The translations under genes were made by a program, and so were the position numbers. A model generated the notes under the pieces. The model searched no databases, had not been told where the DNA came from, and was given only the letters and a program-made list of their open reading frames with translations. Below, one piece after another: positions 12,721 through 13,062 of a DNA stretch of 64,000 nucleotides (the stretch's first letter is position 1; each line of letters begins with the position of its first letter). The DNA comes from Enterococcus dongliensis (GTDB lineage Bacteria > Bacillota > Bacilli > Lactobacillales > Enterococcaceae). The stretch covers positions 1 through 64,000 of the forward strand of contig NZ_BJDQ01000001.1 of assembly GCF_005405225.1 (NCBI RefSeq), read 5' to 3'.

Positions 12721-12749
12721 TTGACTTCTCATTTTGTAAATGATAAATT
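12721..12749 (+). promoter_or_regulatory. Promoter of the cysteine leader/operon
   Basis: TTGACT (12721-12726), a 17-nt spacer and TAAATT (12744-12749) form a plausible sigma-A promoter. Transcription would begin near 12756, only about 24 nt before the first mini-ORF, as expected for a translated leader. Confidence 0.55.
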
Positions 12750-12779
12750 TAGGGCAATCATTTAAGGAGGTCAGAACAC

Positions 12780-12896
12780 ATGGCAAACAACAGTACAATT
12801 CGTCAGTTTCAAACAGTTGAATCAGCATGTTGTTGTATGGTGCAAAAAGCAGCATACCATTTTGTCATGTCTATTAACTGTTCTGGACTCGTTTGA
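12780..12896 (+). CDS. Putative 38-residue cysteine-rich leader peptide
   Basis: A strong AAGGAGG (12764-12770) precedes ATG 12780. The frame encodes 38 residues with a Cys-Cys-Cys run at residues 17-19 (three consecutive TGT codons, 12828-12836) and a fourth Cys at 34, and ends at TGA 12894-12896. An intrinsic terminator follows about 30 nt later and then the cysteine/methionine operon. This is the architecture of a leader peptide whose translation senses charged tRNA-Cys. RNA just after the Cys codons (GGTGCAA, 12839-12845) and later in the frame (CTATTAA, 12871-12877) is complementary to parts of the terminator. Function is inferred from layout. Confidence 0.65.
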   Translation: MANNSTIRQFQTVESACCCMVQKAAYHFVMSINCSGLV

Positions 12897-12926
12897 AAAG
12901 AAGGCAACGTCTAACTTTTAACGATC

Positions 12927-12962
12927 AGAGGTGCAGCTTTAATAGCTTGCACCTCTTTTTTT
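12927..12962 (+). terminator. Attenuator-like intrinsic terminator between leader peptide and operon
   Basis: The stem AGAGGTGCA (12927-12935) pairs with TGCACCTCT (12948-12956) and is followed by a T run. It lies between the 38-residue leader ORF and the structural genes, with no gene of its own to terminate. Segments of the leader ORF are complementary to its loop and 3' arm, which is consistent with antitermination. Confidence 0.8.
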
Positions 12963-13005
12963 GTCCGTAAAATTAGGAACTTTGCTAAAAAGAGGAGGAA
13001 CCACC

Positions 13006-13038
13006 ATGTGTTGTCGCTATCCAGCAAAATTCAGATAA
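13006..13038 (+). CDS. Putative 10-residue second leader peptide MCCRYPAKFR
   Basis: AGAGGAGGAA (12991-13000) is an excellent ribosome binding site five to six bases before ATG 13006. The frame encodes MCCRYPAKFR and stops at TAA 13036-13038, 24 nt before the lyase start. Two Cys codons come directly after the start. It is too short to be an enzyme. A second cysteine sensor acting on translation or mRNA stability of the downstream gene is the simplest reading, by inference. Confidence 0.6.
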   Translation: MCCRYPAKFR

Positions 13039-13062
13039 AACAAAATCAGGAGGAAGAATCTT

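Follow-up and report, generated by a model that had tools for sequence, protein, structure and literature searches.

The window analysed here, positions 1 to 64,000 of Enterococcus dongliensis contig NZ_BJDQ01000001.1 (64,000 nt), holds between dapB and a gene of the cystathionine gamma-synthase/lyase family (CGS) a leader region with two Cys-codon mini-ORFs and an intrinsic terminator, raising the question of how such a leader might act on the operon that follows. Comparison of related leaders, together with folding calculations, leads us to a reading to which we assign a probability of roughly 0.8, namely that the leader is a ribosome-mediated transcription attenuator of the trp/his type, sensing Cys-tRNA on behalf of a cysteine-acquisition operon.

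Architecture of the leader and of its Cys run

The features of the locus, with the basis for each in parentheses, are the following (genome G000: 1.8 Mb, 74% complete).

12721..12749, + strand: promoter-like TTGACT-17-TAAATT with TG before the -10 (motif scan; retained in 8 aligned sequences)
12764..12770, + strand: ORF1 Shine-Dalgarno sequence (SD), AAGGAGG (sequence, alignment, leader counts)
12772..12787, + strand: segment 1, SD spacer plus start-codon strand (CAGAAC + ACATGGCAAA), predicted to pair with 12861-12885 (window fold, pairing counts)
12780..12896, + strand: ORF1, 38 codons, leader peptide MANNSTIRQFQTVESACCCMVQKAAYHFVMSINCSGLV (sequence, comparison)
12828..12836, + strand: three in-frame TGT (Cys) codons (sequence, leader counts)
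12835..12857, + strand: hairpin P3, GTATG(G)TGC-AAAAA-GCA(G)CATAC, starting within the last Cys codon (covariation)
12861..12885, + strand: segment 2, TTTGTCATGT-CTATTAA-CT-GTTCTG, putative antiterminator strand (CTATTAA at 12871-12877) and partner of segment 1 (alignment, pairing models)
12927..12962, + strand: intrinsic terminator, in which TTAATAG at 12939-12945, spanning the loop and the beginning of the 3' arm, complements CTATTAA (fold)
12991..13000, + strand: ORF2 SD, AGAGGAGGAA (sequence, 14 relatives)
13006..13038, + strand: ORF2, MCCRYPAKFR (sequence, 14/14 avium-group CGS leaders)
13063..14220, + strand: CGS gene (NF004821 above cut-off)
14282..15055, + strand: cystine-type ABC substrate-binding protein (best NCBIfam match NF008426, below cut-off)
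15143..15796, + strand: cystine-type ABC permease (best NCBIfam match NF011680, below cut-off)
15802..16539, + strand: cystine-type ABC ATP-binding protein (best NCBIfam match NF008428, below cut-off)

The promoter, the SD, ORF1 with its three TGT codons, the terminator, ORF2 with its own SD and the CGS start all lie where the initial annotation of this DNA had placed them, and the arrangement is confirmed as real and beyond chance. The window has a single instance of the pattern SD-ATG-(24 to 54 nt)-TGYTGYTGY, whereas shuffles average 0.01 (one instance in 1 of 100 shuffles), and the leader RNA (12752-12962) folds with a z of -4.06. The terminator, with a fold of -18.8 kcal/mol, is absent from the list of a simple scan, probably owing to a bulged T. 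Most letters of the promoter-like site are retained in the 8 aligned sequences, window included, and the promoter scan finds equally many sites in shuffles. The genome falls in the Enterococcus avium group, and its CGS protein shares 90% identity with the one from E. pingfangensis.

We compared a set of 62 leaders, which are mutually related (L169 being left out as a duplicate) and whose ORF1 starts were picked by SD score. At least three adjacent Cys codons are present in 58 of the 62, two, or CCFC, in three and a single Cys in one, and the run begins 10-17 codons from the start throughout. With starts so picked, the ORF1 SD matches at least five of seven positions in every leader (62/62), and an intrinsic terminator separates leader ORF and first gene in all 62. 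The Cys codons remain in frame with the SD-led start in leaders whose other residues vary, including a Met to Val change adjoining the run (L170). Conservation of the Cys codons and the SD in related genomes is what the initial annotation had made its attenuation reading depend on, and the comparison did not refute it; the proposal that ribosomes would stall at the Cys codons of ORF1 is backed by comparison across leaders.

Past the Cys run, small insertions move the frame between species (MVQKSSIRICHAY-stop vs MVQKAAYHFVMSINCSGLV) with the nucleotides unchanged; since the nucleotides stay constant while the frame shifts, coding accounts for the Cys run and RNA for the remainder. These observations bear on a different explanation, in which ORF1 and ORF2 encode functional cysteine-rich peptides, for instance metal- or thiol-binding ones, followed by an ordinary terminator. 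The annotation of ORF1 in E. faecalis as a 45-aa hypothetical protein would agree with it, but the residues beyond the run are weakly conserved, the same RNA is read in two frames past it, and neither ORF1 nor ORF2 matches a Pfam or NCBIfam family, so that we regard it as scarcely credible. The window itself has one A fewer at 12844-12848 than most avium-group relatives, which fuses ORF1 to the frame MSINCSGLV; L086 and L089 are likewise fused.

The nucleotides that follow the run form a hairpin. An ATGGT/ACCAT hairpin suggested earlier for this place is found in only 13 of 62 leaders, and the conserved structure is GTATG(G)TGC/GCA(G)CATAC at 12835-12857 (P3), which keeps a G.G mismatch in 57 of 62. 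Four pairs of P3 carry double changes, and none of 500 shuffles is as good (37 leaders; alignment A2 excluded L087, L092 and L099, and alignment A3 comprises 37 of 41 pieces). A control slid by +3 gives a covariation score of 0.111 vs 0.108 for P3, with two vs four double-change pairs and 65% vs 89% paired cells. The register of this hairpin, whose base falls within the last Cys codon, distinguishes the class more than any other feature. In L167, a second copy in the E. alishanensis genome that precedes a cysK-like gene, the Cys run is down to one Cys (VCWTMV) and the hairpin is re-paired as CTATG/CATAG; its sequence marks it as a decaying or re-tuned copy.

Distribution of the leader and of its relatives

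Of 20 genomes of the genus, 15 (counting that of the window) have a match in a BLAST search with 12760-12965. In 14 of these the leader lies before a CGS operon with ORF2, and in the fifteenth, E. alishanensis, before CGS without ORF2. Eight genomes hold a second leader copy (L097-L104) before a cysK/CBS-like gene, seven of them read directly and the eighth read as L170; the gene downstream of L098 scores best with the NCBIfam models for cystathionine beta-synthase and cysteine synthase, in each case below cut-off. The CGS homologues of the five leaderless genomes are distant (at most 50% identity), and this lack of a close CGS indicates that leader and gene travel together.

R1, a covariance model built on the 74-nt core, matches in 48 of 105 genomes of the family, representing 7 of 17 genera. 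Outside the avium group the loci read precede cysK/CBS-like genes, with the exception of L166, which precedes a cystine-type binding protein. A second model (R2), applied with an E limit of 0.01 to 395 genomes of the order, matches in 47 of them. Outside the family three of its matches hold: L201 is a CCC leader ahead of a cystine-type binding protein, L202 precedes a cysK-like gene, and the third is L203. The order-wide R2 matches L204-L218 (E 7.7e-6 or weaker) have no Cys leader at the match and were excluded from the 62 as noise. A scan of 80 loci reveals further leaders in Floricoccus (Streptococcaceae), a Bacillales MAG (L020), four Liquorilactobacillus, Oenococcus and a Lactobacillus MAG, and Companilactobacillus also carries a Cys-rich leader; L052 and the second match in L049 are without a terminator and were judged chance. 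In L203 (genome G229) a CCC leader and terminator precede a metA-like gene (NCBIfam MetA models, below cut-off), with the hairpin fully re-paired and neither CTATTAA nor an AATAG loop. In L166 and L201 the binding-protein gene is directly downstream, with no CGS or cysK in between.

The family of G229, which we take as Lactobacillaceae because its leaders resemble that of Companilactobacillus, was searched in 61 genomes and gave 28 cysK-type loci. In the 11 best (L219-L229) a Cys-rich mini-ORF lies some 180-340 nt upstream, with no Cys run located in L228, and all 11 have a terminator hairpin; in the 17 weaker loci, perhaps paralogues, no Cys-rich mini-ORF was found upstream. Of 20 Lactobacillaceae-type leaders that were folded (mean z -3.6), 19 have a hairpin whose first base is the second position of the last Cys codon. 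The RNA sequence of these leaders differs, and Cys run, hairpin register and terminator are retained, with TGC and TGT both in use. L029, L041, L049, L072, L073 and L046 have in common an Arg a few residues past the Cys run, and in some of them part of the hairpin strand could, by eye, pair with the 5' arm of the terminator.

Two counterparts connect these leaders with published expression data. In the accessible portion of PMC6004538, expression of the L. paracasei cysK2-ctl1-cysE2 operon in cysteine-deficient medium exceeds that in methionine-deficient medium by about 3 log2 units, and the operon's 5'UTR has high coverage, no T-box and the terminator motif AAGGGCGCGAAA-N16-TTTCGCGCCCTT; that portion names no sensor and also reports an antisense RNA. 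A plasmid copy from L. paracasei (not strain FAM18149 itself) has an SD-led ORF, MMSQSMFNAINCCCRTTRFWRCSAC, ending NCCCRTTRFWRCSAC, followed by the same terminator motif. In E. faecalis, according to the available parts of PMC2930860 and PMC2766626, cysK (EF1584) shows raised expression in urine and in blood. An E. faecalis record has a 45-aa ORF with CCC before cysteine synthase and cystathionine gamma-synthase genes, the former of which we infer to be EF1584; Cys codons and hairpin are present in this leader, which is without CTATTAA and without an AATAG loop. In E. faecalis IDRL-9065 (L249, 2274-2411) the leader ORF is annotated as 45-aa hypothetical protein WP_002355203.1, on a record described as a 747-kb 'plasmid' with housekeeping genes such as efp.

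These relatives help to weigh two explanations in which the Cys codons play no sensing part. The leader might be a ligand- or protein-sensing RNA (a riboswitch, a T-box or a protein-bound leader) with an incidental Cys ORF, as the unusually conserved core, the widespread P3 mismatch and the degenerate copy L167, which retains P3 and loses Cys codons, could suggest. The Rfam searches, however, find no family at gathering score in the window, and with 12640-13070 at E up to 1 only a chance CRISPR-repeat match (E 0.4), which rules out a T-box or a known riboswitch. Furthermore, the Cys codons keep their frame where neighboring residues change, as in L170, and the Lactobacillaceae-type leaders combine another RNA sequence with the same Cys run, hairpin register and terminator. 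We consider a sensing RNA of this kind unlikely.

The other explanation is a constitutive premature terminator that sets a low level of expression, the Cys codons being a by-product of structure. It draws on the window fold, where the Cys codons pair with the 5' part of ORF1 (TGTTGTT with AACAACA). This 5' partner varies between families, however, whereas the TGT codons stay constant; moreover, Lactobacillaceae-type leaders use either Cys codon, and the L. paracasei relative responds to cysteine supply in the accessible portion of PMC6004538. A terminator without regulation appears very unlikely to us.

Competing pairings and a candidate mechanism

In the ribosome-free fold of the window, TTTGTCATG and the strand 3' of CTATTAA are engaged by the SD spacer and the start codon, and CTATTAA itself stays unpaired. 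Over 59 leaders the start strand CATGGCAAA is paired with TTTGTCATG in 488 of 531 cells, vs 286 for the best slid control. In 42 distinct cases, segments 1 and 2 form 14.5 expected pairs vs 5.9 with segment 1 shuffled (7.9% of shuffles reach the observed value); the pairing amounts to at least 8 expected pairs in 38 of the 42 and is low or absent in L083, L090 and L162. For the antiterminator, segment 2 with the terminator, the same number of distinct cases gives 12.1 expected pairs vs 4.9 with segment 2 shuffled (4.9% of shuffles reach the observed value), with L167 and L201 no better than shuffles and L098 also weak. This pairing above shuffles suggests that segment 2 is built for pairing with the terminator and that the SD/start region competes for it. 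AATAG lies in or adjoining the terminator loop in 55 of 62 leaders, though the stems vary, and, CTATTAA and AATAG being nearly invariant, little covariation can come from them.

As the initial annotation had noted, GGTGCAA (12839-12845) is perfectly complementary to 12947-12953, and CTATTAA (12871-12877) to 12939-12945. The two pairings fare differently in the comparison. Pairing of a GGTGCAA-type 7-mer with the 3' arm of the terminator is exact in 8 of 62 leaders and extends to the first 5 nt in 15 of 62, and is thus not conserved; the predicted competitor of the antiterminator is the long-range pairing of SD and start codon with segment 2, not GGTGCAA/TTGCACC. The predicted antitermination through 12871-12877, on the other hand, is backed by comparison, and in the models this segment would be masked, wholly or partly, by a ribosome at the end of ORF1.

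We modelled ribosomes as masks on 59 Enterococcus-type leaders, with the RNA truncated just past the terminator loop. Segment 2 forms a mean of 3.9 expected pairs with the 5' half of the terminator when ribosome-free. The mean is 4.4 once a single ribosome occupies the Cys run and 11.9 when another sits on the SD as well; placing a ribosome at the stop, a state that masks segment 2 by construction, gives 0.1. The window's own leader gives 0.0, 0.0, 11.0 and 0.0 in these four states. The antiterminator reaches at least 5 pairs in 56 of 59 leaders with a stalled plus a second ribosome, in 21 of 59 with one stalled and in 18 of 59 ribosome-free. In full-length RNA the terminator prevails in every ribosome state (mean 0.94-0.95), so that the model hinges on the order and timing of folding during transcription. 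On 21 Lactobacillaceae-type leaders the ribosome model gives no clear difference among states and the switch model is not reproduced. The ORF1 stop codon begins 4-35 nt past the start of CTATTA in 57 of 59 leaders; in 27 of 59, the window among them (23 nt), it begins at least 17 nt past, from which it follows that a terminating ribosome would mask CTATTA only partly, or not at all in L202.

Conservation, P3 covariation and pairing capacity above shuffles can be seen in the compared sequences, and we infer from them a course in which stalling, masking and a second ribosome would each have a part. With ample Cys-tRNA, a ribosome would pass the TGT run and end on or shortly past CTATTAA, masking all or part of it; with segment 2 masked, the terminator would form and transcription would stop. 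With scarce Cys-tRNA, a ribosome stalled at the TGT run would open P3 and leave segment 2 free. Segment 1 would also be occupied, most simply by a second, initiating ribosome, which the spacing of 10-17 codons from start to Cys run would fit; alternatively, the stalled ribosome may merely block closure of the long-range stem, with the same effect. Segment 2 could then capture the terminator's loop and 5' arm and let RNA polymerase read through, giving the cysteine response we would expect in Enterococcus. In most leaders, RNA that is not being translated would have segments 1 and 2 paired with each other and the SD of ORF1 hidden as a result.

ORF2 and the relation to known systems

Within the read-through transcript, ORF2 would form a second Cys-codon element. 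Present in all 14 avium-group CGS leaders and in none of the other 48 of the 62, it keeps ATG TGT TGT with a strong SD in 14 of 14. Its ATG precedes that of CGS by 55-60 nt in 13 of the 14 and by 93 nt in the remaining one, and in two (L084, L094) its stop falls 1 nt ahead of the start of CGS. The interval between core and ORF2, by contrast, ranges from 168 to 702 nt owing to insertions: in L090-L094 it is 306-702 nt, vs 168-181 elsewhere, with insertions of roughly 130-530 nt, and ORF2 still adjoins CGS. In L094 a block of about 190 nt appears by eye to be repeated between terminator and ORF2.

The ermC and ermA leaders, which work by translational attenuation and by stall-dependent mRNA protection, offer possible models for ORF2, from which ORF2 differs in having no SD-sequestering structure and in involving no drug. 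No structure hiding the SD was found between ORF2 and CGS: the 14 sequences have a mean z of 0.10 and the window a z of +1.59, so that the stretch is no more structured than shuffles, which argues against an SD-hiding hairpin of the ermC type. Of the translational checkpoint proposed earlier, conservation upholds the element itself (14/14), and the SD-sequestering form finds no support. The near-fixed distance, together with a stretch of ordinary structure, points to a role exerted through the ribosome close to where CGS begins.

A ribosome stalled at ORF2 codons 2-4 would leave room for initiation on CGS, and the most likely role we see for it, which the comparison supports weakly, would be to protect or prime the read-through CGS mRNA. 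Attenuation at ORF1 may instead be accompanied by an ORF2 that acts as a translational attenuator of the ermC kind or as a coupling cistron, a serious contender to which we give somewhat less than an even chance. The regular spacing to CGS and the abutting stops in L084 and L094 would favor it, as would the mycobacterial polycysteine mini-ORFs cited as cysteine-responsive attenuators in the accessible text of PMC13236596; the ordinary structure between ORF2 and CGS argues against it.

Leader-peptide attenuation is a known principle, and transcription attenuators of the trp/his type are known from Proteobacteria. The Enterococcus leader shares with them the SD-led mini-ORF, the run of codons for the regulated amino acid, the competing hairpins and the intrinsic terminator before the operon. 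It differs in using Cys codons, in occurring in Lactobacillales, in the predicted competition of its own SD and start codon with the antiterminator, and in an antiterminator strand that would pair with the loop and 5' arm of the terminator.

The consulted part of PMC1262725 (Seliverstov et al. 2005) describes ilvB leaders of Actinobacteria as leader-peptide attenuators and, in the same phylum, Cys-codon runs in short ORFs before cys operons, for which it reports no conserved terminator hairpins; the mycobacterial polycysteine sORFs are leaderless by the title of Canestrari et al. 2020, as cited in the accessible text of PMC13236596. The Cys-codon runs in short ORFs before cys operons are the likeness, whereas the Enterococcus leader has an SD, structured RNA and a strong terminator and is not leaderless. 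In bacilli, a histidine leader peptide before hisS/hisZ (Naville and Gautheret 2010, PMC2965389, consulted in part) likewise represents leader-peptide attenuation in Firmicutes and differs in amino acid and genes; the part consulted names no cysteine leader. The L. paracasei operon (PMC6004538, accessible portion) resembles the present one in gene type, terminator motif and cysteine response, and through the Cys-Cys-Cys mini-ORF of the plasmid copy; it differs in having a Lactobacillaceae-type leader of unrelated sequence, a type in which the switch model is not reproduced. A literature search, with subscription journals mostly outside its coverage, returned no description of a cysteine leader with an intrinsic terminator in Lactobacillales, and no model of Rfam 15 matches the element.

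Taken together, these data allow a broader suggestion, which we make tentatively and hold at a little below even odds: an ancient class of cysteine attenuators, marked by a P3-type hairpin, may extend across the Lactobacillales and control methionine-to-cysteine and cystine-uptake operons, with the avium group having gained a post-transcriptional ORF2 stage and thereby a two-step gate. For the L. paracasei operon the accessible portion of PMC6004538 gives a terminator and no known regulator, and the available parts of the urine and blood sources on E. faecalis cysK name none. The leader is a candidate answer to how the cysK-ctl-cysE and cysK-cgs operons of lactic acid bacteria respond to cysteine, and it constitutes a searchable RNA element new to Rfam 15. 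If confirmed, it would add cysteine to the amino acids sensed in Firmicutes by leader peptides with intrinsic terminators.
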